This document shows positions 17,886-30,860 of a stretch of 64,000 nucleotides of DNA, piece after piece (within the stretch, counting starts at the first letter, position 1; every line of letters starts with the position of its first letter). The position numbers and the translations under genes are program-made. Below the pieces are notes generated by a model. The model did no database searches. It saw nothing but the letters and a program-made list of their open reading frames with translations, and was not told where the DNA came from. The DNA is from a virus, in the IMG/VR virus record IMGVR_UViG_3300020578_000058, positions 1 through 64,000 of that record, one strand, 5' to 3'.

Positions 17886-18206
17886 ATGCCGCGCCCCACA
17901 ACCCTCGACCCCGCCGAAGTAGACCGCATGGTGGAGCGGCAGGTGCGCTCTGCGGCGCAAGCCGTGGCATCGGCGTTGCGGGCGGTAGAGCAGACGCACA
18001 CTCCCCGTTCTCGGCGGGTGGCGCGGCACCTTGCAGGCGTGCTGCGAATGCTCCAAGACACGGGCAGGGTCACCTCACCCTTCGACCCCGTGGACGAGCC
18101 CTCCACAGGTCGGGCGGCAAAGGTCGCCGCCCCACTCCCCGAGCCCCCTCCTCCCGTCGAACCTCCTGCACCCCCGGCAACAGAAGTAGAGGCACCCGAT
18201 GCGTGA
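17886..18206 (+). CDS. Small protein with Pro-rich tail before portal
   Basis: 106 residues. The N-terminal 60 residues are a single basic helical region ('VERQVRSAAQAVASALRAVEQ', written here in part) and the C-terminal 35 residues are Pro/Glu/Ala-rich and probably disordered. Its stop overlaps the portal start by 8 bp. A promoter-like GGGTACTCT lies at 17862-17870, just 15 bases before the ATG. Function unknown. Confidence 0.5.
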   Translation: MPRPTTLDPAEVDRMVERQVRSAAQAVASALRAVEQTHTPRSRRVARHLAGVLRMLQDTGRVTSPFDPVDEPSTGRAAKVAAPLPEPPPPVEPPAPPATEVEAPDA

Positions 18207-19902
18207 GCAAGACGACGCTACGCCGGTCGGGCATGTTCCCTCGGGTGACGGCAAGTCCAAGGCCAAGACGGGCAAGCCCCGCAAGGTCGCCACGACGGCC
18301 ATGCGCTCCAAGTTCGCCTCCATCGGAGGGGGTTTGGGCGGTGCGGGCACCGTGCAGGGCATGGGCGGCAACTTCTACTCGCCCGAACTCTCAACCGACT
18401 TCCTTGAACTCCCGCAAAGCCTTCACGAACAATGGAACTACTATCGGTTCTTCTACCGTTCCGAGCCGTTCGTCGGGCAGGCCATTGATCTCCACACCGA
18501 ACTCCCGCTCTCCAAGATCCGCATTGCTCGCCCGAAGGCCAAGAATGTGGAACTCGCACAGGAGGCCACGCGCTTCTGCGAGCGGTGGGCGCAGCGCATT
18601 GGGCTGCTCCACCGGCTCATCGCCATCGTCCACGAACGCAACCTCATTGGCGAGGTGTTCATTTGGTGCGAGGACGCCAACCCCGACATGCCCCGCGAGG
18701 TGCGCGAAGAAGTCCTGCGTGAACTGAACGAGGACGGCGAAGCCGTTGAGCGGTGGGTGGTTCGGGACGACGCCGACGAGCGCGCCGCCCGGTGGCTGCG
18801 GAAGAACTACAAGGGGTGGACGGGCGTGCGGTGCTTGCCCCCCGAACAGGTGCGCGTCGAGTCGTTCAACTTCACCGACGAACGCATCTTTGAGTTGATC
18901 CCCGACAGCAAGACCAAGAGCATTATTGAGAAGTCCGACTCGGGGGACGCGAACGCGCAGCGCGTGGTGGCGTCCATGCCACCGGATGTGGTGGCGGCGG
19001 TGCGTAACGGCGCGAACATTCCGTTGAACACCGACCCCGACGCGGGCTCCTTCGTCTACTACATGGCGAACCGCAAGTCGGACTACGAGCAGCGTGGGCG
19101 CAGCATTCTTGAACGCTGTATGCGCGTCTTGGTGTACCGGGACAAGTTGCGGCAGGCGCAGACAAGCATCGCTTCGCGGCACATGACCCCCATTCGGCTC
19201 GTGTACGCCGAGGACATGGATCAAGCCGATGTGGAGGCGTTGCGTGAGCAGGTAGACCTTGCCCTGCAAGACCCCGACTACTCCATCATTGCGAACTTCC
19301 AAGTGAACTGGGAAGAAATGGGGGCCGACCAACGGCTTCTCGATCTTGGGACCGAGTACGACATGACCGACCGGCAGTTGTACGCGGGCTTGGGCGTGAC
19401 GGAGGGCTTGCTCTCGGGCGAGAGCGCCTACTCGGGCGACCGCATCAACTTGGAGGTCATCAACACGCGCTACATGCTGCTGCGGGAGCAGGTGCAAGAC
19501 CTCGCGGAGAACGCCTTCTTCCGGCCCATGTGTGCGCGCATGGGCTTTGTGGAGGAGGACGAGTACGGCGAAATGCAAGTTCTTGTGCCGCGCTTGTCGT
19601 TCACGCGGCTTGCGCTCCGCGACAACTCCGACACCTTCGACGCCCTCTACAACCTCTACACGAAGGGGTCGCTCGATGTGGACACCATCCTTGAACTTCT
19701 GAACCTTGACCCTATTGCGGTCAGGGAGAAGGTCGAGCGTGACCTGTTCACGGTCAATGACCCGACCTTCAATGAAGTCATGCGGGGCATCTACGGAGAC
19801 GCGGGCCGCAAGTTGGCCGAGGAGAGCGATGTTGTCACCAAGATCGCCAAGGGTCTTGGCCTCAAACACACGCCCCCCAAGGAGGGGGGCGACCGCTTTT
19901 AG
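18199..19902 (+). CDS. Portal protein
   Basis: 567 residues. The portal is the twelve-part ring at one head vertex through which DNA enters and leaves. The N terminus is Gly-rich and flexible, then 'SLHEQWNYYRFFYRSEPFVGQAIDLH' marks the start of the portal fold (about 75-100). The stretch 'IIANFQVNWEEM' to 'LGVTEGLLSGESAYSGDRINLEV' (about 365-420) is typical of T4-like and related portals. The 3' end carries a terminator hairpin and overlaps the convergent SWIM gene by 4 bp. Confidence 0.9.
   Translation: MREQDDATPVGHVPSGDGKSKAKTGKPRKVATTAMRSKFASIGGGLGGAGTVQGMGGNFYSPELSTDFLELPQSLHEQWNYYRFFYRSEPFVGQAIDLHTELPLSKIRIARPKAKNVELAQEATRFCERWAQRIGLLHRLIAIVHERNLIGEVFIWCEDANPDMPREVREEVLRELNEDGEAVERWVVRDDADERAARWLRKNYKGWTGVRCLPPEQVRVESFNFTDERIFELIPDSKTKSIIEKSDSGDANAQRVVASMPPDVVAAVRNGANIPLNTDPDAGSFVYYMANRKSDYEQRGRSILERCMRVLVYRDKLRQAQTSIASRHMTPIRLVYAEDMDQADVEALREQVDLALQDPDYSIIANFQVNWEEMGADQRLLDLGTEYDMTDRQLYAGLGVTEGLLSGESAYSGDRINLEVINTRYMLLREQVQDLAENAFFRPMCARMGFVEEDEYGEMQVLVPRLSFTRLALRDNSDTFDALYNLYTKGSLDVDTILELLNLDPIAVREKVERDLFTVNDPTFNEVMRGIYGDAGRKLAEESDVVTKIAKGLGLKHTPPKEGGDRF
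19871..19900 (+). terminator. Intrinsic terminator inside the portal 3' end
   Basis: An 8-bp perfect stem (CGCCCCCC at 19871-19878 with GGGGGGCG at 19884-19891), loop AAGGA, followed by ACCGC and TTTT at 19897-19900. The hairpin lies in the last codons of the portal gene and would end the packaging operon before the convergent cassette. Confidence 0.6.
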
Positions 19903-20342
19903 TAGAGCGGGCCGAATTCCGCCCGCCGCAGGGCGAGCGTCTCGGCCATGTCCTCGGGGTGCGGGTCTTCCCACCCCTCGTCCAGCATGTCGAGGGCGGT
20001 GGCGAGCGCCTTGCGCTCCCCGGTCACCCGCACCCACTCGGGGCGGGCGAAGTTCACCACCCACCGCTCGGTGACGGCGAGGGCGTGCTTGCACGCCCCC
20101 ACCCGCCCGTGGTCGGGGCAAGTACAGTTGAAGGTGGCGCGGTCGAGGTCCACGCGCACCGCGTATTCCTCGCTGCCGAGGACGCGGGCGACGAGGAGTC
20201 CCCCGTTGTTACGGGCCACGGCCCACGCCACCTTGACGGTGGCGGCGCGCTCGCGCCGGGCGCGGTTCGCGCCGTCGAGGAGGCGGCGAGCCGCCTGCCC
20301 ACGAGCGCGGAGGGTGGCGAGCGCGGCGTCGAAGTCGTTCAT
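19899..20342 (-). CDS. SWIM zinc-finger protein
   Basis: 147 residues from the ATG at 20342, which has AAGGAG upstream. A helical basic N terminus ('ARRLLDGANRARRERAA') is followed by a strand pair and the SWIM motif Cys73-x-Cys75...Cys84-x-His86 ('CTCPDHGRVGACKH'). SWIM fingers bind DNA or protein. It is the last gene of a two-gene minus-strand cassette and has its own copy of the conserved minus-strand promoter. Biological role unknown. Confidence 0.7.
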   Translation of the reverse strand: MNDFDAALATLRARGQAARRLLDGANRARRERAATVKVAWAVARNNGGLLVARVLGSEEYAVRVDLDRATFNCTCPDHGRVGACKHALAVTERWVVNFARPEWVRVTGERKALATALDMLDEGWEDPHPEDMAETLALRRAEFGPLY

Positions 20343-20383
20343 GCGGTGCTCCTTGCCTGTGAAACAGGACGGGCGGGGTGAGA

Positions 20384-20417
20384 GGGGTACGCGGCACCGG
20401 GCTACCGCGAAACCCCC
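20384..20417 (-). promoter_or_regulatory. Conserved minus-strand promoter, copy 1
   Basis: On the minus strand, a -35-like GGTTTCGC, 17 bases, and a -10-like GCGTACCCC. Bases 20378-20398 and 20407-20417 are identical to 58466-58486 and 58495-58505, with the same 8-base gap. It lies 41 bases upstream of the SWIM gene start and inside the 3' end of the HNH gene. Confidence 0.6.
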
Positions 20418-20836
20418 TCCACGAACGAAATGTCGAGGGTCCACTCATGCCGGGACCGCTCCTCCCATTCAGCCCGCGCCCGGTCAAGGTAGTCGGCGCA
20501 CTCCTGCTCCGACCAACCGTTCACTTTGCGGAGGTGCTTGACGGCTTGCGGACCACGCCCAACGGCGAACGCCCGCCCAATGTGCTTGACCTCGTGGCAG
20601 GACGGGCAGAGGGCCACGAGCCCCACGAGCCGTTGGACCCGTGTGGTGTCGTCGTACTCCCACCGCTCGTGCGCCTCGACGGGCCACTTGCGGCCCTTGC
20701 CGCCGCAGACCTCGCACCTGTGCCCTGCCGCCTCGTAGCAGGCACGGCGCAGCCTGTCCCACTCCGAGGGGCGCAACCGCGAGCGTAGGTTGTCGCCCCA
20801 TTGGCTCGCGGGCACGAGGTCTACTGTGAGCCTCAT
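20402..20836 (-). CDS. HNH endonuclease
   Basis: 144 residues; ATG 20836 has GGAGG four bases upstream. Zinc cysteines 'CEVCGG' (41-46) and 'CPSC' (77-80) flank the HNH core with 'VEAHERWEYDD' (His56) and 'HEVKH' (81-85). The helical C terminus ('WSEQECADYLDRARAEW') is a common partner of this subfamily. HNH enzymes nick or cut DNA; in phages they act in homing, packaging or host-DNA attack. Position far from the terminase start and in a minus-strand cassette favours an accessory or homing role. Confidence 0.82.
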   Translation of the reverse strand: MRLTVDLVPASQWGDNLRSRLRPSEWDRLRRACYEAAGHRCEVCGGKGRKWPVEAHERWEYDDTTRVQRLVGLVALCPSCHEVKHIGRAFAVGRGPQAVKHLRKVNGWSEQECADYLDRARAEWEERSRHEWTLDISFVEGVSR

Positions 20837-20856
20837 GCGGCCTCCGACCAATCCAG

Positions 20857-20958: not shown

Positions 20959-23900
20959 ATGCTCCGTCGCCACGCTGCCACACCCAAGAAGTACGAGCAC
21001 ATCGACTTCACCCCGCCCGAGGGTGCGGCCAATGCTGCTGCGAAGGGCTTGGAGTACCGTGAGAAGGCCAGCCCTTCCAACAAGGGCGGGCTTACGCCTG
21101 CCGAGGCGAGCAAAGAGGGCATTGGTTCGGGCGTGCAGCGTGCGGTGAACTTGAAGAACCGCAACACGCTCTCACCCGACACCATCAAGCAGATGCACGG
21201 CTTCTTCTCGCGCCACGAGAAGAACAAAGGTGTGGCCCCCGAACACAAGTCCGAGCCGTGGAACGACAAAGGGCATGTGGCGTGGCTTCTGTGGGGGGGA
21301 GACGCAGCAAGGTCGTGGGTCGATAAGGTTCTCGGGCAAATGGAGAAGGCCGACGAGAGAGAGGCCGTGAAAAAGGCTGCTCGGTTCCTCGCTTCCGGCC
21401 CGTCCCTGTCATTGGACGACCTCGGCTACGGGAGCCTCACGACGGACGAGGAAGCCTTGTTGCTCACCCCCTCGGCTGCGTTCCCGGCGAATGTGCTTGC
21501 GTTCATTCCGCAGGTGCCTTGCCCCGAGAACTCGTCTTTGGAGACGCGGCGGGAACTTGCCCACTTGCTTCGGTTGCAGCACGAGGCCCGGCCCTACCTC
21601 GCACAGCAGGTAGCCGCGACCGACGAGAACGCTACGGCCACCTTGGAGGCGTACTGCGCCGAGCACGGGTTGGACGCAAGCGGTGTGCTCCCCATCACGA
21701 ACGCTGCCCGCCCGGTGATCCTGCAAGTCAAGCGGCTCTATAACCGCCCGCGCCCGTACCAACTGGCCGAGTTCTTGGAGCCGGGGTTCCGCCCCATGTC
21801 GTCCACGACGGCCCACACGCCGTCGTATCCGAGCGGTCATTCGGCGCAGGCGGTGCTTGTCGCGCTGCTCCTGTCGGGGCTTTACCCCGAGCACCGGGAC
21901 GCTTTCATGGCTCTCGCCCAAGAAGTCGGCACACACCGCATGGTCGGCGGCTATCACTTCCTTTCGGACATTACCTACGGCGAGCAAGTCGGGCGGGTGC
22001 TCTACGAAAGCATGGCCCGCGCCTCGGTGCGTACCGCTGCCGCCAAGTACGCTGCCGCCAAGTACGCTGCCGCCAAGTACGCTGCCGCCAAGTACAAGGA
22101 AAAGAAGAAGGTTCCCAAGGCGGACGGGTCGGGCAAGACGACCGTGTATGTCTACTCCGAGCGGCAGGTGGCGAACCGTCACCGGGAGAAGGCCGAGCGG
22201 TTGGAGGACTTCAAGCCCGCTCTCGCGGAACTTCGCGCACAGGTCAAGAAAGACCTCGACGCGAATGACCCGAAGAAGAACTTGGTCGCCCTCGCCGTGG
22301 GCCTCATTGACGCGACTTACGAGCGGGTCGGCAACGAGGACAGCGCCGACAATGGGCACTACGGGGTCACGGGGTGGCTCCGCAAGCATGTGACCTTCAA
22401 GGGCAAGCGTGCCGTCATTCGCTATGTGGGCAAGTCGGGCGTCAAGCACGAGAAGTCGGTGGACGACGAGGCTCTTGTCGGCGCATTGAAGAAATGCTGC
22501 GGAGACAAGGACGGGGACGAGGCCGTGCTCTCCCTTGGCAAGCACACCGTCACCTCCGATGAGGTGAACAAGTACCTCAAACCCTACGGCATCACCGCCA
22601 AGGACTTGCGGGGGCTGCACGCCAACCGGGAGATGCAGGAGCGCCTGCGCGCTATCCGCAGCAAGGGGCCGAAACTGCCCCGGCTTCGGAAGGAGCGCGA
22701 CCCCATTCTCAAAGAGGAGTTCCAGAAGGCGTTGGAGGGTGCCGCCGAAGCCGTGGGGCATGAGCCTGCGACCTTGCGGAAGCAGTACCTCGTCCCCGGC
22801 ATCGAAGAAGCCTACATGAAGGACGGCACGGTGACCCGCGACCTCACGGCGAGTACCCGTGTCGCCGCCCTCTACTTGCGGGCGACCAAGACCGACGCCG
22901 AGCGCGAGGACGAGGAGGCCGAGCGGCTGCTCAAACCCGAGCCGAAGTACAAGCCACCTCGGAACGACTTGCGCCGTCGCCGTGTCGAGACGGAGCAGGA
23001 CGCCGACCCCGACAAGAAGCAAGACGACAAGGACAGGTCGCAGAACTACAAGGACGCTGCTCACCGAGCGTTGGTGCAGCGCGTGGCCGCACGCTTCTTG
23101 TTTGCGAAGTCCGGTCCCGGTGGGAGTGCTACCAACACCTTGCAGGAGCGCGCACAGAAGGAGTTCGACGCCTACGAGAAGGAACACCCCGACACCGAAC
23201 TCAAGGTCGAGGACTTCGTAGAGCGCATCCAGAAGCAGCAGCAGGGGTCCAGCGGTGGGGCTCCACTCAATGAGAAGGCCCAAGCCGCCCAACAGAAAGC
23301 GGAGTTGGCAGCGTTAGAGGTCAAGCGAAAGTCCGAGGGTGTGCAAAAGGCCGTGGACAAGGTTTCGGCTATGTGGAAGGACATGCCGAACCTTCCCGGC
23401 ATGTCCAAGCAGAACCACGAGCGCATCAAAGAAGCCGTCTCGTCCTTTGGCCCCAAGCAGCGCGAGGAGTTCCTTGCCGCCTTTGAGACAGAGAAGGACG
23501 CCCTCGTAGGCAAGTACGCCGGGGACAAGAGCGAGTACGACCCGGCGTTTGTCGAAGAAGCCCTGCAAAGCATGGAGAACACCCCGAAGGGCAAAGACCC
23601 CAAGGCCGTGGGAAAGAAAGCCATGCAGGCCATCTTCACCGACCGTGTGCTGCTCAACCCGCTTATGCTCACACCCTCGGATCCCTTGTCAGACAACCCT
23701 GACAAGGGAGACGAGCGACACCCCCCTGCCAAGGCAGCGAAGCGGGTGGGCCAAGCCGTCAAGCGGTTCTCCCGCGCTTCCAAGGCCGAAGTGGACGCCA
23801 TGAGCGGCAGGCTCAAGTCTGCCCTCAAAGCGTGTGAGCCCGGCTCCCCCCAACACGAGGAGTTGCTTGCCATGCAGTATGGCATGGCGGTGGCCGCTGC

Positions 23901-24630
23901 CATGCCCAAGGCGAAACCCAAGGGCAGGCACGGAGACGAGCCCGAAGGAGAGGGGGGGAAGCCCGAGAAGGCCGCGAAGCCTCCCGAGGGCATGTCCGGC
24001 GTCGAGTTCGGCTTGCTCCAACACCTGCACAAGAAGGGGGACGACACATCCGAGTTGGTGGGGTTGTCGTTCCGCAATAGCCGGGACGACAAGAGCGCCG
24101 TGGCAGACACCAAGAAGTTTGTCCGCGAACAGGCAGATGGCATGAGCATGGGCGAGTTGAACGACATGCTCCCCCCGAACATGCAAAGTCTCTCTGCGTC
24201 GTTCCTCGCCTTGAAGAAGTCGCTCCCCTTTGTGAGCGAGGGGTTGTTCTCGGGCTTCTCGGAAAAGTCGCGCTCCAAGCAGCGTGCAGAGCAAGAAGCC
24301 GGGTGGAGCAAAGACGAGGCTCGGATCGCAGACGAACTCCGCACGACGCTCGTAGACTGCGTTTCCGAGACGGTCGGCAAGGACGAGAAGGCGGTCACAC
24401 GAGCAAGCAGGTCCGTCAAGGACTACGCTCATGACACCGCAACGCCCAAGGGGGACGCAAGCAAGTCCGGCAAGTCGTGGGCAGACTGGTTGCAAGGGTT
24501 GCGGGCAGACTTCATGAAGGCGCTTGGCTCGTCCTCCAAGACGGGTTCCCGTCGAGTGTGGTCACCCACCGTGCCCGGCTACGCGCTTGACGCGCCTCCG
24601 CTCTCGGTAGCGGCTCTATACACCCTCTGA
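20959..24630 (+). CDS. Fusion: head-type domain + PAP2 phosphatase + topoisomerase IB
   Basis: 1223 residues from ATG 20959. Domain 1 (about 14-132) has 'ASPSNKGGLTPAEASKEGIG' and 'HVAWLLWGGDAARSW', a conserved phage domain I believe is Pfam DUF5824. Domain 2 (about 150-350) is a PAP2/haloperoxidase-type phosphatase with all three motifs: Lys258-x6-Arg265-Pro266, 'PSGH' 291-294 and Arg327-x5-His333-x3-Asp337. Four Ala-Ala-Ala-Lys-Tyr-type repeats (359-379) form a linker. Domain 3 (about 395-620) is a type IB topoisomerase with the full catalytic set by alignment to the vaccinia enzyme: Arg456, Lys492, Arg551, His601 and Tyr610. The remaining 600 residues are helical, charged and unassigned. 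It heads the capsid assembly block, after the portal. Confidence 0.8.
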   Translation: MLRRHAATPKKYEHIDFTPPEGAANAAAKGLEYREKASPSNKGGLTPAEASKEGIGSGVQRAVNLKNRNTLSPDTIKQMHGFFSRHEKNKGVAPEHKSEPWNDKGHVAWLLWGGDAARSWVDKVLGQMEKADEREAVKKAARFLASGPSLSLDDLGYGSLTTDEEALLLTPSAAFPANVLAFIPQVPCPENSSLETRRELAHLLRLQHEARPYLAQQVAATDENATATLEAYCAEHGLDASGVLPITNAARPVILQVKRLYNRPRPYQLAEFLEPGFRPMSSTTAHTPSYPSGHSAQAVLVALLLSGLYPEHRDAFMALAQEVGTHRMVGGYHFLSDITYGEQVGRVLYESMARASVRTAAAKYAAAKYAAAKYAAAKYKEKKKVPKADGSGKTTVYVYSERQVANRHREKAERLEDFKPALAELRAQVKKDLDANDPKKNLVALAVGLIDATYERVGNEDSADNGHYGVTGWLRKHVTFKGKRAVIRYVGKSGVKHEKSVDDEALVGALKKCCGDKDGDEAVLSLGKHTVTSDEVNKYLKPYGITAKDLRGLHANREMQERLRAIRSKGPKLPRLRKERDPILKEEFQKALEGAAEAVGHEPATLRKQYLVPGIEEAYMKDGTVTRDLTASTRVAALYLRATKTDAEREDEEAERLLKPEPKYKPPRNDLRRRRVETEQDADPDKKQDDKDRSQNYKDAAHRALVQRVAARFLFAKSGPGGSATNTLQERAQKEFDAYEKEHPDTELKVEDFVERIQKQQQGSSGGAPLNEKAQAAQQKAELAALEVKRKSEGVQKAVDKVSAMWKDMPNLPGMSKQNHERIKEAVSSFGPKQREEFLAAFETEKDALVGKYAGDKSEYDPAFVEEALQSMENTPKGKDPKAVGKKAMQAIFTDRVLLNPLMLTPSDPLSDNPDKGDERHPPAKAAKRVGQAVKRFSRASKAEVDAMSGRLKSALKACEPGSPQHEELLAMQYGMAVAAAMPKAKPKGRHGDEPEGEGGKPEKAAKPPEGMSGVEFGLLQHLHKKGDDTSELVGLSFRNSRDDKSAVADTKKFVREQADGMSMGELNDMLPPNMQSLSASFLALKKSLPFVSEGLFSGFSEKSRSKQRAEQEAGWSKDEARIADELRTTLVDCVSETVGKDEKAVTRASRSVKDYAHDTATPKGDASKSGKSWADWLQGLRADFMKALGSSSKTGSRRVWSPTVPGYALDAPPLSVAALYTL
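22036..22095 (+). repeat. Four perfect 15-bp tandem repeats (coding linker)
   Basis: GCTGCCGCCAAGTAC repeated four times without change, encoding Ala-Ala-Lys-Tyr-Ala units that join the phosphatase and topoisomerase domains. Perfect identity at the DNA level suggests recent expansion. Confidence 0.95.
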
Positions 24631-24708
24631 ATGGTAAGCCCCCTTGCGCTCCGCATTCGGGCGGGGCAGTTTCACTCCCATTCCCTCCGAAACCGCAGGA
24701 GTTCTCCA

Positions 24709-25377
24709 ATGGCCCGTCTCACCCGCCAAGGGGCGCGCAACCTCACCGCAGCCCTCGACAACATCGCCCAAGTCGTCCAGCAGCGCGCCGCGTTGCTCGG
24801 CCTCGACACGCGCACGGCTACCGACTTCGCGTACCGTTGCGACCTCTTGTCGGACGCTATTGAGCGCACCGCTTCCGCGAACTTCCCGCTCTCCCGGCAG
24901 GCCACAGACGCCTATGGCAAGGGCAGCGACGACGAGGGCATGAGCGTCGAGCACGGCGAGGGTGGGTTCGACCCGAACTTGATTGGGGACGAGGTTCCCG
25001 GCCCGTTGGAGATCATCGAGCCCCCGAGCGAGCCGTGGATGGACGGGCACTTCACGCAGGAGAAGTACCACGTCCTCGGTGAGTTGCAGGAGGCGGGCGA
25101 ACTCGGCCCCGTTCACCTCGCTTCGCTTCTGACCAAGGCTGCGGGCATCATCCTCGCGCAAGAGAGCGACAAGGAGGAGCAGGAGGAGGAGCAGCAGGAG
25201 GTCAAGAAGTCGGCCAAGAAGGGCCAGCAGAAGGGCAAAGTTCCTCCGCAGTTCCTTGAGCAGCAGAAGAAGAACAAGGGTGAGGAGCAGCAGGCCGAGA
25301 AGGAGGAGCAGCAGGAGAAGGGCGCCAAGAAGAAGGCGTCGGCTGCGAATGATTGGGGCTTCAACCTCACCCGCTGA
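24709..25377 (+). CDS. Scaffold-like protein with Glu/Gln/Lys-rich tail
   Basis: 222 residues from ATG 24709 (CAGGAG upstream). The N-terminal 70 residues are helical; a central part holds 'FDPNLIGDEVPGPLEII' and 'EKYHVLGELQEAGEL'. From about residue 160 the chain is almost only Glu, Gln, Lys and Ala, ending in a short hydrophobic 'DWGFNLTR'. Such charged tails are seen in prohead core and scaffold proteins. It precedes the protease gene, fitting a head-assembly role. Confidence 0.5.
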   Translation: MARLTRQGARNLTAALDNIAQVVQQRAALLGLDTRTATDFAYRCDLLSDAIERTASANFPLSRQATDAYGKGSDDEGMSVEHGEGGFDPNLIGDEVPGPLEIIEPPSEPWMDGHFTQEKYHVLGELQEAGELGPVHLASLLTKAAGIILAQESDKEEQEEEQQEVKKSAKKGQQKGKVPPQFLEQQKKNKGEEQQAEKEEQQEKGAKKKASAANDWGFNLTR

Positions 25378-25970: not shown

Positions 25971-27446
25971 ATGGCTTTCATGAAGTACGCTCGCGCGCAG
26001 GTCATGCACCCCCGCATCACGGGGGCCGCGTGGCAGGGCATCCGTAAGCAGGCGTCGTCTGCCCCCACGGCGTCAAAGAACCTCGTGGCGCAAGCAGGCG
26101 AGATCCTCGGGGAGACTTTCTCCCCTGAGCGGTACTTGTTGACACACTGTTCGATTGTGGCAAGCGTCGATGTGGATACGGTGCCGAATGTGAAGTTGGG
26201 CACCGAGAAGGTCGGCTCCCGCACCGTCACGCGGAAGTGGGCCGACTACTACATCAAGCCAGAGTGCGCGCAGTTTGTGAACAACAACGGCGACTCGTGG
26301 TCCCGCGAAGTGCTCATGAAGTCGTTCCGCACCTTCATTGGGGCGCACAACTTCTTGGAGCATGTGCAAATCGAGGAGCAGTCGAAGGGCCGCATCATTG
26401 ACGCCGTGGCCCGCAACATTGGCCCTTCGGTCTATGTGGACATTCTCGTGGCGACCGACCGCAAGCACGCCCAACTCGTGCAGGACATTGAGAGCGGTAA
26501 GATGAGCACGCTCTCGATGGGCTGCTCCTGCGAGTTCACGCTTTGCTCTCAATGCGGGAATGTCGCGGTGGACGAGACGGACCTTTGCGAGCATGTGAAG
26601 TACTCCAAACTCAACACCTTCTTCGATGCCCGTGGGCAGCGGCGGGTCATTGCAGAACTGTGTGGGCACTCCTCTCACGGGGAAACGGGTGGGGTTCAAT
26701 TCATTGAGGCGTCTTGGGTCGCCGTTCCGGCCTTCGCAGGCGCGGTCATGCGGAACATCCTTGACCCCGGTTCCGTCTCGCCCGAGAAGGCCAAGCATTT
26801 CTCCGAGGTGCTATCGGCACCTCCTGCCGAGTGGGGCACCAACATCCTCCGCGCTGCGTCCGAGCACCGCACGGCGCAGCAGTTCGACTTCGGGGACGAG
26901 GGTGGCGACGAGGGTGGTGAAGGGGAGGGGGACACCAAACCCCCCGAGAAACCTTCCAGCCCTTTCGCGGACATGGAGGACGAACTCTACACGGCGGTCA
27001 AGAACCGCGTGAAAGAGCGGTTGGAGAAGGAACTGCGTGAGCAGAATGTCGAGAAGGCTCTCGACACCCCGACCGCCCCGAACGAGAGCGTCATCAAGGA
27101 AGCGGCTATAACCAAGGCCGCTGTGCAGAAGTTCGCCCGTGAAGCCCATGCCAAGAGCGTTGACACGCTTCTTCGGGTAGCATCCTCGGACGCTGCTTTC
27201 GTGGACGGGCTTGTGGAAATCGACCGTTCTTTTGGACTTCGCGTTCCACAGTCTGTCTATCGCACGGCCCTTACGGTAGGTGCGACCACGAACTACCTTT
27301 CTCCTGACGACTACTTCTGCGCCTGTCATAAGCAAGCGCGGAGGGTGCTCTCCCCTTCCGAACTTCGGGTCGCATACCGAATCGGCAACCTGCTCACCCG
27401 AAAGGGGAGCATTCACCCCCGCAACCGAGGACACAACCATGCGTGA
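25971..27446 (+). CDS. Probable prohead maturation protease
   Basis: 491 residues. The first half fits T4 gp21-like and related prohead serine proteases: a His in 'TFIGAHNFLEHVQ' (121-133), 'GRIIDAVARNIG', 'VYVDILVATDRKHA' and a Ser in 'STLSMGCSCEF' (179-189). It carries an extra Cys-rich insertion ('LCSQCGNVAVDETDLCEH') that could bind zinc. The second half is acidic, then helical, and may be scaffold-like. Position (scaffold, protease, scaffold, capsid) supports the call. These enzymes remove scaffold and clip capsid proteins before DNA packaging. Confidence 0.7.
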   Translation: MAFMKYARAQVMHPRITGAAWQGIRKQASSAPTASKNLVAQAGEILGETFSPERYLLTHCSIVASVDVDTVPNVKLGTEKVGSRTVTRKWADYYIKPECAQFVNNNGDSWSREVLMKSFRTFIGAHNFLEHVQIEEQSKGRIIDAVARNIGPSVYVDILVATDRKHAQLVQDIESGKMSTLSMGCSCEFTLCSQCGNVAVDETDLCEHVKYSKLNTFFDARGQRRVIAELCGHSSHGETGGVQFIEASWVAVPAFAGAVMRNILDPGSVSPEKAKHFSEVLSAPPAEWGTNILRAASEHRTAQQFDFGDEGGDEGGEGEGDTKPPEKPSSPFADMEDELYTAVKNRVKERLEKELREQNVEKALDTPTAPNESVIKEAAITKAAVQKFAREAHAKSVDTLLRVASSDAAFVDGLVEIDRSFGLRVPQSVYRTALTVGATTNYLSPDDYFCACHKQARRVLSPSELRVAYRIGNLLTRKGSIHPRNRGHNHA

Positions 27447-29022
27447 GCGTCTGACTTGGAAGCGCGGCGGGGCTCTCAATGCTCCCCCGCGCCGTGCTTC
27501 TGCCCACCCCGCCTACCCCGACGAGGGTGCCGCCTCCCCGGCTTACCAGCCCGACCCCGAGGCCGACGCCTACGAGAACGGCAATCCTTCTGCGTGGGCC
27601 GAAGACCCGAACCCCGGCCCGTACCCGCAGTCGGCGCACCCCTCGTACCCCGACGAGGGGCCTGCCTCTCCCGCCTACATCGCCAAGCAGGGCAGCGTTG
27701 CCCTCGCCTTGGAGCGCAAGGCCGCCAAGTGCGTTCGCCTCGCTTCGGCCATGCTCGGGCCGACCGCTTCGCAGCACGAAGTCGAGAGCCAAGCGTTCGC
27801 GTTCATGGACATGAGCGAGCGCGCCCTCCAAGCCTCCCTCTCCCGTCTCGCGCAGCAGGACGAGGAGGAGCAGCAGGACGCCGAGGAGCAGCAGGCCGAG
27901 GAGCAGGCCAAGAAGGCCGCCCTCCGTCGCCGCGCGCAGCAGGCCAAGAAGGACGCCGAGGAGCAGCAGGCCGAGGAGCAGCAGGCCGAGGAGCAGCAGG
28001 AGGTCAAGGGTGGCAAGAAGGCCGCTCTCGCCAAGGCTGCTTACTTGCGCCGCCTCGCGCAGCAGATTGAGGAAGAAGTCGAGGAGGAGGTCGAGGACGA
28101 CGACTCCGACGAGGACGAGGACGAGGCGCAGCAGGAGAAGGGAGCCAAGAAGGCTTCCGTTCTTGACGCCCGCCTTGCCCGCATCGAGCGCCTCCTGACC
28201 GCTGGCGTTCCCGGCATGTTCATGCAGCACAACATGGCGCAGCAGAAGTCTCCCGAGGAGGCCATGTTTGAGGCCATGCAGGACGAGGCCATGCAGGACG
28301 AGGCGCAGTCCTTGGAGGAGATGCTCTTGGAGGAGATGCAGGACGAGGCGCAGCAGGACGAGGCGCAGCAGGACGAGGCGCAGTCCTTGGAGGAGATGCT
28401 CTTGGAGGAGATGCAGGACGAGGCGCAGCAGGCCCCCAAGCCCTTCGGCATGATGGCCGAGCAACTTGCCATGCAGGGCGACAACGCTGGCCCGATGGTC
28501 GAGTCCATGCGGCACAACATGGCGCAGCAGGCTCCCATTGAGGCGCAGTTGGCCGAGATGCTCCAAGAGGAGGGCATGGCCGGTGTGCTTGGTGCCGAGT
28601 ACGCGGACGAAGCCGAAGCCATGCTCGTTGACCCGAGCGGCGACGACTACATCGGCGCAGACGGGATGCTCGTTGACCCGAGCGGGGACAACTACGACGA
28701 CGGCATGGTGGCCGACCCGATGGGCCTCATGGGTGACGGCGGCAACGAGGACGACGCCATTCTTGCGTCCCTCTTTGGTGGCGAGGCCATGAAGTACGCC
28801 AAGAAGGGTCAGCAGGGCCATGCCGACGCCGAGGCGCAGGAGGAGGAGCAGGAAGCCGACGAGCCCAAGAAGGGCCAGCAGAAGGCCGCTGCCCTTCGCC
28901 CGCAGCCCCGCAAGGCGTCCACGGGTGCCACCCGCCTCGGGGGCATCACGAAGGAGGCTGCCGAGGTTGGCGACCTGTCGAAGTTGTGGGAGTCGGCCCC
29001 CGATGTGAGCAAGTACTTCTAA
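27439..29022 (+). CDS. Acidic repeat-rich scaffold / prohead core protein
   Basis: 527 residues from the ATG at 27439, overlapping the protease 3' end by 8 bp. After a Pro/Tyr-rich start with two 'YPDEGxASPAY' copies, the chain is dominated by Glu, Gln, Ala, Asp: repeats such as 'LEEMLLEEMQDEAQQ' (twice) and 'MLVDPSGD' (twice). A helical 'AKKAALRRRAQQAKKDAEEQQ' section (split) precedes it. The end 'DLSKLWESAPDVSKYF' looks like a conserved capsid-binding tail. The composition and the position before the capsid genes indicate scaffold. A strong terminator follows. Confidence 0.65.
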   Translation: MRERLTWKRGGALNAPPRRASAHPAYPDEGAASPAYQPDPEADAYENGNPSAWAEDPNPGPYPQSAHPSYPDEGPASPAYIAKQGSVALALERKAAKCVRLASAMLGPTASQHEVESQAFAFMDMSERALQASLSRLAQQDEEEQQDAEEQQAEEQAKKAALRRRAQQAKKDAEEQQAEEQQAEEQQEVKGGKKAALAKAAYLRRLAQQIEEEVEEEVEDDDSDEDEDEAQQEKGAKKASVLDARLARIERLLTAGVPGMFMQHNMAQQKSPEEAMFEAMQDEAMQDEAQSLEEMLLEEMQDEAQQDEAQQDEAQSLEEMLLEEMQDEAQQAPKPFGMMAEQLAMQGDNAGPMVESMRHNMAQQAPIEAQLAEMLQEEGMAGVLGAEYADEAEAMLVDPSGDDYIGADGMLVDPSGDNYDDGMVADPMGLMGDGGNEDDAILASLFGGEAMKYAKKGQQGHADAEAQEEEQEADEPKKGQQKAAALRPQPRKASTGATRLGGITKEAAEVGDLSKLWESAPDVSKYF

Positions 29023-29984: not shown

Positions 29985-30860
29985 ATGTCTGTCAACAACA
30001 GCGTCAAGCAGAAGTTGATCTCGGAGTACATCAACACTCCGCAGGGTCGCGCCAAGTTGGCCGCGTCGATGACGCAGCCGCTCCGTCTGCGCCGTGACTA
30101 CATGGCGGTTGGTCGCAAGACCTTCCTCGTGGAGCAACTGCCGGACGGCGCGCTGCCGATCTACGACAAGGATCCCGATGTGACCGCGTTCGTGGTCGGT
30201 GAGGAGGGCGAGAACATCGTCGCCATCACCAAGCCCCGCCGCGTCATCTTCCCCCTGTTTGAGATCGCGTCCAACCCCGAGATCCCCCTCACGCAAATCA
30301 AGGAGCGTCGGTTCGACCTCATTGAGCGCGCACAGGACTTGGCTCGGGCGCAGATCCAAGCAGCCGAGGACGAGCGGGTGTTCTCCGTTCTCGACGCCAT
30401 CGCCACCAACGGCTTCGACTCGGTTTCGGGGCAGTTCAACCCCGACATCCCGGTTGTCGCCCCCATCAGCGGTGCCGTCCTCGCGGACGCCTACGCCGAG
30501 ATCGAGCGGAACGACCTCCGCGTTGCCCGCGTGTTCATGAACGCTCGGGACTACGCGGACCTCCGCAAGTTCGGTCGGGACATCCTCGACATCGAGAGCC
30601 AGCGCGAGTTGCTCAAGACGGGCCTCATGGGCACGCTTTGGGGCGCGCAGATCATCGTGTCGCGTCTCGTCCCGGTCGGCACGGTCTATGTCTGCTGCGA
30701 GCCCGAGATGTTCGGTCGGATGCCCGTCCGTACCGAGTTGACCGTGCTCTCTGCCGACGACCCGAAGGCCCGCACCATCGGCTTCTCCGTGTTCGAGAAC
30801 ATCGGTATCGGGGCCTACAACCCGAAGGGCCTCACGCGGTTGACCATCACCCGCGCGTAA
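29985..30860 (+). CDS. Major capsid protein (HK97 fold)
   Basis: 291 residues; GGGAGGG upstream of ATG 29985. The pattern is that of short HK97-fold capsid proteins: an N-terminal arm, then 'ITKPRRVIFPLFEIASNPEIP' region (part), the spine helix 'RFDLIERAQDLARAQIQAAEDERVF' (part), and the A-domain 'DLRVARVFMNARDYADLRKFG' leading to 'GLMGTLWGAQIIVSRLVPVG', as in many marine and actino-phage capsids. The gene is followed by a near-perfect terminator, fitting a very abundant product. Confidence 0.9.
   Translation: MSVNNSVKQKLISEYINTPQGRAKLAASMTQPLRLRRDYMAVGRKTFLVEQLPDGALPIYDKDPDVTAFVVGEEGENIVAITKPRRVIFPLFEIASNPEIPLTQIKERRFDLIERAQDLARAQIQAAEDERVFSVLDAIATNGFDSVSGQFNPDIPVVAPISGAVLADAYAEIERNDLRVARVFMNARDYADLRKFGRDILDIESQRELLKTGLMGTLWGAQIIVSRLVPVGTVYVCCEPEMFGRMPVRTELTVLSADDPKARTIGFSVFENIGIGAYNPKGLTRLTITRA

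Follow-up and report, generated by a model that had tools for sequence, protein, structure and literature searches.

Comparison with its homologs shows the protein encoded at positions 20959-24630 of the window to be one version of a multi-enzyme (polyvalent) protein that is subject to shuffling, its modules being reordered, fused or split from one phage to another. The window is the whole 64,000-nucleotide stretch analysed, positions 1 to 64,000 of the 68.8-kb viral record IMGVR_UViG_3300020578_000058. We regard the identity of the modules as virtually certain from their sequences (Table 1): a head-associated N-domain, a PAP2 phosphatase and the catalytic domain of a type IB topoisomerase (TopIB). 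That such a polyvalent-type protein is delivered by the virion seems probable. With slightly more reserve we also favour the explanation as a whole, namely that a huge phage would hold this tagged multi-enzyme chain in its head and eject it with the DNA.

Table 1. Features of the polyvalent protein gene and of neighbouring head genes (positions in the window)
Feature	Position	Strand	Basis or description
Portal protein	18199..19902	+	PHROG 16240 E=8e-31; 63% identical to LR745208
Whole ORF	20959..24630	+	1223 aa: N-domain, PAP2, TopIB catalytic domain, helical C-terminal region
N-domain, residues 10-138, helical, head-associated	20986..21372	+	PHROG 2859 E=7e-10 (residues 10-133); AF2 pLDDT 87.8; fusions to portal / prohead protease elsewhere
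Degenerate tag KKAARFLA, N-domain/PAP2 joint	21370..21393	+	translation
PAP2 module, residues 157-353	21427..22017	+	Pfam PF01569 E=6e-16 (residues 257-345); PDB 7f17; profile range; motifs
PAP2 motifs	21730-21756, 21829-21840, 21937-21969	+	K258-x6-RP; PSGH 291-294; R327-x5-H-x3-D337
15-bp x 4.1 repeat (AAAKY x4), 100% identical, PAP2/TopIB joint	22035..22095	+	TRF
TopIB catalytic domain, residues 395-637	22141..22869	+	Pfam PF01028 (Topoisom_I) E=3e-22 (residues 406-608); invariant pentad; Foldseek to variola TopIB
TopIB catalytic residues	R456 22324, K492 22432, R551 22609, H601 22759, Y610 22786	+	translation
Tag RVAALYL, immediately after TopIB	22858..22878	+	motif
Tag RVAARFL, ahead of C-terminal region; L004 split point	23080..23100	+	motif
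C-terminal region	23116..24510	+	separate gene in L004; distant homologs in huge-phage polyproteins
Degenerate tag-like C-terminus SVAALYTL	24604..24627	+	translation
Small head-region gene	24631..25377	+	L004 homolog fused to polyprotein C-terminal region
Head maturation protease candidate	25971..27446	+	PHROG 18299 E=1e-14
Major capsid protein (MCP)	29985..30860	+	PHROG 2522 E=5e-53; 85% identical to LR745208

Modules of the protein and their setting among head genes

The whole frame, with 1223 open codons on the plus strand, is coding and selected, as judged from a GC content of 64, 44 and 81% at codon positions 1, 2 and 3 and from dN/dS values against relatives that indicate purifying selection in all four regions (below 0.32 throughout; TopIB 0.07-0.08, N-domain 0.10-0.13, PAP2 0.16-0.26, C-terminal part ~0.3). 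Homologs spanning the full length occur in two relatives (L002 and L003). GC at the third position, dN/dS and these homologs together rule out a chance ORF and bear out the single frame of the original prediction. A defence-system protein was also considered and rejected, as PADLOC gave no match.

A head-type domain had been predicted at the N-terminus, and the PHROG match and the occurrence of the domain in fusions with portals and prohead proteases confirm it. Its AlphaFold2 model is all-helical and confident; searched against the PDB, this model matched no known fold, and many of its structural matches in BFVD are named prohead protease, portal, XkdF or Mu gp29-like. In other contigs the N-domain is fused to a portal (L289), DUF2213 (L219), a phosphatidylserine decarboxylase (L215) or a nucleotidyltransferase (L214). 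From these fusions and the BFVD matches it is best named a head-associated module.

Both enzyme domains were matched in Pfam far over the curated cut-offs. All three PAP2 motifs are present where predicted, and in a PDB sequence search the module matched the acid phosphatase 7f17 (E=1e-13). The original prediction allowed for a phosphatase acting at the membrane, which the nearest relatives argue against: by its sequence the module belongs with the soluble class-A acid phosphatases, since these relatives are soluble and no membrane-like stretch is seen (peak 19-residue mean hydropathy only 1.5). A membrane lipid phosphatase is thus unlikely, given the absence of hydrophobic helices. With class A non-specific acid phosphatases (PhoN and PhoC, of the PAP2 superfamily) the module shares all three motifs, solubility and the best PDB sequence matches, but unlike them it is an internal module of a larger chain and has no signal peptide of its own.

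The five catalytic residues of TopIB lie where the original prediction placed them, and the pentad is invariant across 34 aligned sequences. The module matched the topoisomerases of D. radiodurans (2f4q, E=3e-9) and variola virus (2h7f, E=5e-5) in the PDB, and its model reached a Foldseek probability of 1.00 to variola TopIB, with pLDDT of about 85-96 across most of the catalytic domain. However, the enzyme is not complete, as had been proposed: the alignments begin at residue 77 of 2f4q and residue 63 of 2h7f, so that it lacks the N-terminal clamp domain and consists of the catalytic domain only. Type IB topoisomerases require neither ATP nor metal. With the clamp lacking, relaxation activity of the module is putative. 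A scan of genome contigs with narrow patterns yielded no relative that could point to a cellular source of this TopIB clade. The low confidence of the PAP2 half in the AlphaFold2 model A8, which counts against our preferred explanation, confines the structural evidence from that model to the TopIB half. An alignment mixing PAP2 and TopIB fragments (A5) appeared misaligned and was left out.

The gene lies between the portal and protease genes, as originally described. Best matches of the window's MCP and portal are those of the 485-kb phage LR745208, followed by Tunturiibacter phage Tunturi_5 (309 kb) and Bacillus phage G (498 kb), and on the strength of the identities to LR745208 (85% for the MCP, 63% for the portal) the window is probably a piece of a huge phage genome. 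Two further contigs (G005, 288 kb, and G010, 113 kb) share its head module of portal, enzyme cassette, small proteins, protease and MCP, a synteny judged by eye from gene lists, that is, from protein starts and gene order.

Shuffling of modules among relatives

A TopIB profile search returned 53 loci, mostly on contigs of 80-500 kb, with TopIB ORFs of 273 to 2798 aa. Near relatives retain the N-domain, PAP2 and TopIB and have extra modules inserted: a 2H phosphoesterase in L002, a PolyA_pol-type nucleotidyltransferase together with 2H in L003, and in L004 a module that by eye resembles an Ntn hydrolase. In L044, PAP2, N-domain and TopIB follow a different order, and further relatives contribute HAD_SAK_1, InPase, LPD1, an intein and NUDIX (the last in G004). 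Altogether, shuffling was seen in L002, L003, L004, L008, L009, L032, L044, L046 and L056. Between L003 and the window, the PAP2 modules are 63% identical and the flanking modules 89-92%, as expected if PAP2 had been replaced independently; in other phages, PAP2 modules are joined to cytidylyltransferase-like domains. In G005, the neighbour of the TopIB polyprotein is a protein combining nucleotidyltransferase, HAD-SAK and 2H, plausibly an RNA-end repair set, and a tagged 2H protein of G004 scores just over the cut-off of the anti-CBASS family Acb1, in line with early counter-defence.

The C-terminal region is subject to the same rearrangement. A tag marks the point at which the frame is divided in L004, where the TopIB gene ends RVASRWLFKELK and the next gene carries RVAARWL near its start; this second protein comprises the C-terminal region of the window protein and the homolog of the window gene at 24631-25377. 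Division into separate proteins with inactive sites had been named as evidence against the original prediction. Splits do occur, in relatives such as L004 and L026, but the active sites are retained and the prediction therefore stands on this point.

It fared less well on function. The protein was supposed to be built into the prohead, its topoisomerase relaxing DNA in the course of packaging or injection, for which the gene position, the N-domain and the general knowledge that TopIB is independent of ATP and metal can be adduced. However, the TopIB-PAP2 fusion is missing in most head-module relatives, the slot is taken by RNA-repair enzymes that have no packaging role, and linear DNA being packaged is not topologically closed. 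We consider this possible but unsupported role very unlikely; the relatives instead point to interchangeable enzymes that may be delivered together and act after entry. The modular nature of the protein, like the recurring tag described below, was absent from that earlier account.

A recurring tag at module joints and protein ends

Throughout these phage genomes, the short motif R-[VI]-[AV]-x-[RK]-[YFW]-[LKA] recurs where modules join and at either end of unrelated proteins. Near TopIB loci it was counted 61 times, against 0.74 expected from residue shuffles, and across five whole contigs 40 times against ~1.7, permuted patterns giving a median of 1 and a maximum of 13; a 400-kb part of G007 held 5 against 0.4. 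At control phage loci it was not clearly enriched (3 against 1.2 and 4 against 0.8 expected). The tag is a statistically real, genome-wide motif. Among the 40 copies on the five contigs, 15 are found at residues 1-30 (5 expected) and 6 close to the C-terminus; the N-terminal excess was weaker in a Shine-Dalgarno test (19 against 11.7). Stand-alone TopIB genes retain the motif right after the start codon. The window phage carries the tag almost only in the polyvalent protein, which counts against our preferred explanation, and relaxing the motif in a scan of the window revealed no further convincing tagged protein. Nor did the motif occur in the examined stretches of phage G, Tunturi_5 and the LR745208 head region, and a 40-aa tagged leader peptide used as bait matched no isolate. 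The tag is apparently new: a literature search of partial coverage found no published description.

The linker between PAP2 and TopIB, originally described as a perfect four-unit repeat, is indeed that, and it proves to be more than a repeat peculiar to this joint. Relatives carry a single unit at the same position (e.g. RTAAAKYKDKK or RVAARYKEKKK), and the (AAAKY)4 array is, from this comparison, the expansion of one copy of a motif that recurs within the protein. Such an expansion, and the frequent position of tags at fusion points, would suit a mere helical linker or a gene-fusion remnant with no function of its own. This we hold to be quite improbable, as the sequence is specific (the 40 copies against a median of 1 for permuted patterns), tags also sit on the ends of proteins without visible fusion, and position +2 varies in concert within a genome, being V in 13/13 tags of G004 and A in 14/16 of G005 (Fisher P=2e-6). 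A concerted change across unrelated proteins fits a shared binding partner.

That the tag is a packaging or targeting signal is, on sequence evidence, an evenly balanced proposition. Instead, the head maturation protease might cut the precursor at each tag and so free the enzymes inside the head. Tags do lie at module joints, the same modules are separate genes in relatives, and processing befalls the P1 proteins DarA and DdrB as well as head proteins of SPN3US and T4 (PMC5512222, PMC5694885). Yet tags at extreme N- and C-termini would leave little to cut off, no conserved Glu column surrounds the tag as it does T4 and SPN3US sites, and the motif is absent from the window's MCP, which makes a processing site unlikely. 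We judge it equally unlikely that the tag sends proteins not to the capsid but to a replication compartment inside the cell, or to some other structure built by the phage, with the enzymes then acting during replication. Tagged genes are scattered over whole genomes, TopIB is suited to replication, and its gene lies away from the head genes in G002 and G004, a placement that fits a general tag rather than a head-cassette rule; against this stand the N-domain, common to portals and prohead proteases, and the position of the cassette, which in the window, G005 and G010 is inside the head module.

Proposed delivery and relation to described systems

In the delivery model that we prefer, unrelated enzymes would share one chain held at the head by the N-domain. 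N-domain and tags would recruit the protein into the prohead, where it would remain inside, to be ejected together with the phage DNA. Without needing ATP, TopIB could then relax the phage DNA as it enters or in early replication, and PAP2 might dephosphorylate soluble substrates (RNA ends, nucleotides or signalling nucleotides). PAP2 would in this way belong to a set of enzymes for early counter-defence or RNA repair, to which relatives would add their nucleotidyltransferase, 2H, HAD-SAK, NUDIX and pyrophosphatase modules. The action of PAP2 on nucleotides or RNA ends is a tentative assignment. Similarly speculative is the wider proposal that one lineage-tuned tag (R-V-A/V-x-R-Y/F-L) serves as a general capsid-loading signal at the N-terminus, at the C-terminus or between modules, with TopIB, PAP2, RNA-repair and possibly anti-CBASS enzymes as cargo.

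By analogy, the closest functional counterparts of the tag are the capsid targeting sequence of T4 and the propeptides of SPN3US (PMC5694885). These are likewise short peptides common to unrelated proteins, which in their case are packed into the head, whereas the tag of the window lineage also occurs C-terminally and internally, differs in sequence and lacks the x-x-Glu cleavage motif; as a loading signal it would be more versatile than that of T4. If so, it would offer a sequence handle to predict the injected proteins of huge phages, mostly unknown, as well as a portable means of loading proteins into very large capsids. In encapsulins, a short cargo-loading peptide is found on unrelated enzymes enclosed by an HK97-fold shell. 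A loading tag would be the viral counterpart of such peptides, although it is not restricted to the C-terminus and its binding to the shell is putative. The topoisomerase and the PAP2 phosphatase would extend the list of enzymes believed to enter the host during the first minutes of infection, and with one gene slot a phage could swap delivered enzymes like cartridges.

The kind of protein is known. Polyvalent proteins (Iyer et al. 2017, PMC5512222) are a described class of large phage chains of unrelated enzymes, encoded near late genes and combined with virion domains. Here, too, PAP2, TopIB and an N-domain of unrelated biochemistry are joined in one polypeptide, encoded near virion genes (portal to protease and MCP). 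Modules described for this class (2H, InPase, Pol-beta-type nucleotidyltransferase and LPD) are shared with the protein's relatives; none lies in the window protein itself, and 2H, InPase, LPD1 and nucleotidyltransferase are found in close or more distant relatives. Pfam detected no MPTase in it either. By contrast, that paper leaves PAP2 unmentioned and has topoisomerase in a reference title only, and the passages of it that were considered contain no recurring tag. Literature searches of partial coverage found neither a link between a polyvalent protein and topoisomerase IB nor a described protein with the PAP2 and TopIB combination, in agreement with the original prediction, and both the combination and the tag are apparently undescribed. 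Stand-alone TopIB is known in the jumbo phages PaBG, NCTB, RSL1, Lu11 and Motura (PMC7824862), and in PaBG, as in the window, a few genes separate it from the MCP. Unlike the window protein, the two inspected, those of PaBG and NCTB, are single enzymes of ~560 aa whose N-terminal part is long, and their identity to TopIB of the window is no more than about 25-30%.

Tag dialects and tagged proteins

The tag, a short motif found at module joints and protein termini (R-[VI]-[AV]-x-[RK]-[YFW]-[LKA]), occurs in dialects: at position +2, its [AV] position, all 13 copies in the related phage contig G004 carry V, whereas 14 of the 16 copies in the related contig G005 carry A. A 182-aa 2H protein of G004 (L180:11466-12014, reverse strand) bears the tag at its C-terminus and also just exceeds the Pfam cut-off for the anti-CBASS protein Acb1; likewise tagged is a 610-aa protein with a Zeta_toxin-family domain (L154:15331-17163).

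Genes interspersed among the head genes

Location of further features in the window
Feature	Coordinates	Strand	Position
Acidic, Gln-rich repetitive protein	27334-29022		between protease and MCP
Two ORFs	19899-20851	-	between portal and polyprotein

The repetitive protein is built of EAQQDEAQQ units and is, by its position, a scaffold candidate. Judged by eye from their sequences, the two ORFs resemble proteins of the SWIM zinc-finger (CTCPDHGRVGACKHALAV) and HNH (CEVC..CPSCH) types, respectively; neither had a Pfam match at 1e-3.

Module fusions in other loci

In other phages (loci L083, L121 and L124), cytidylyltransferase-like domains (PHROG 395/3041) and PAP2 modules are fused, in either order. 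L215:5164-8067 joins an N-domain of the window polyprotein's type to a phosphatidylserine decarboxylase domain. A 2798-aa polyprotein with one end open (L020:1-8397) combines TopIB with a nucleotidyltransferase, which is split by an intein with a LAGLIDADG domain.
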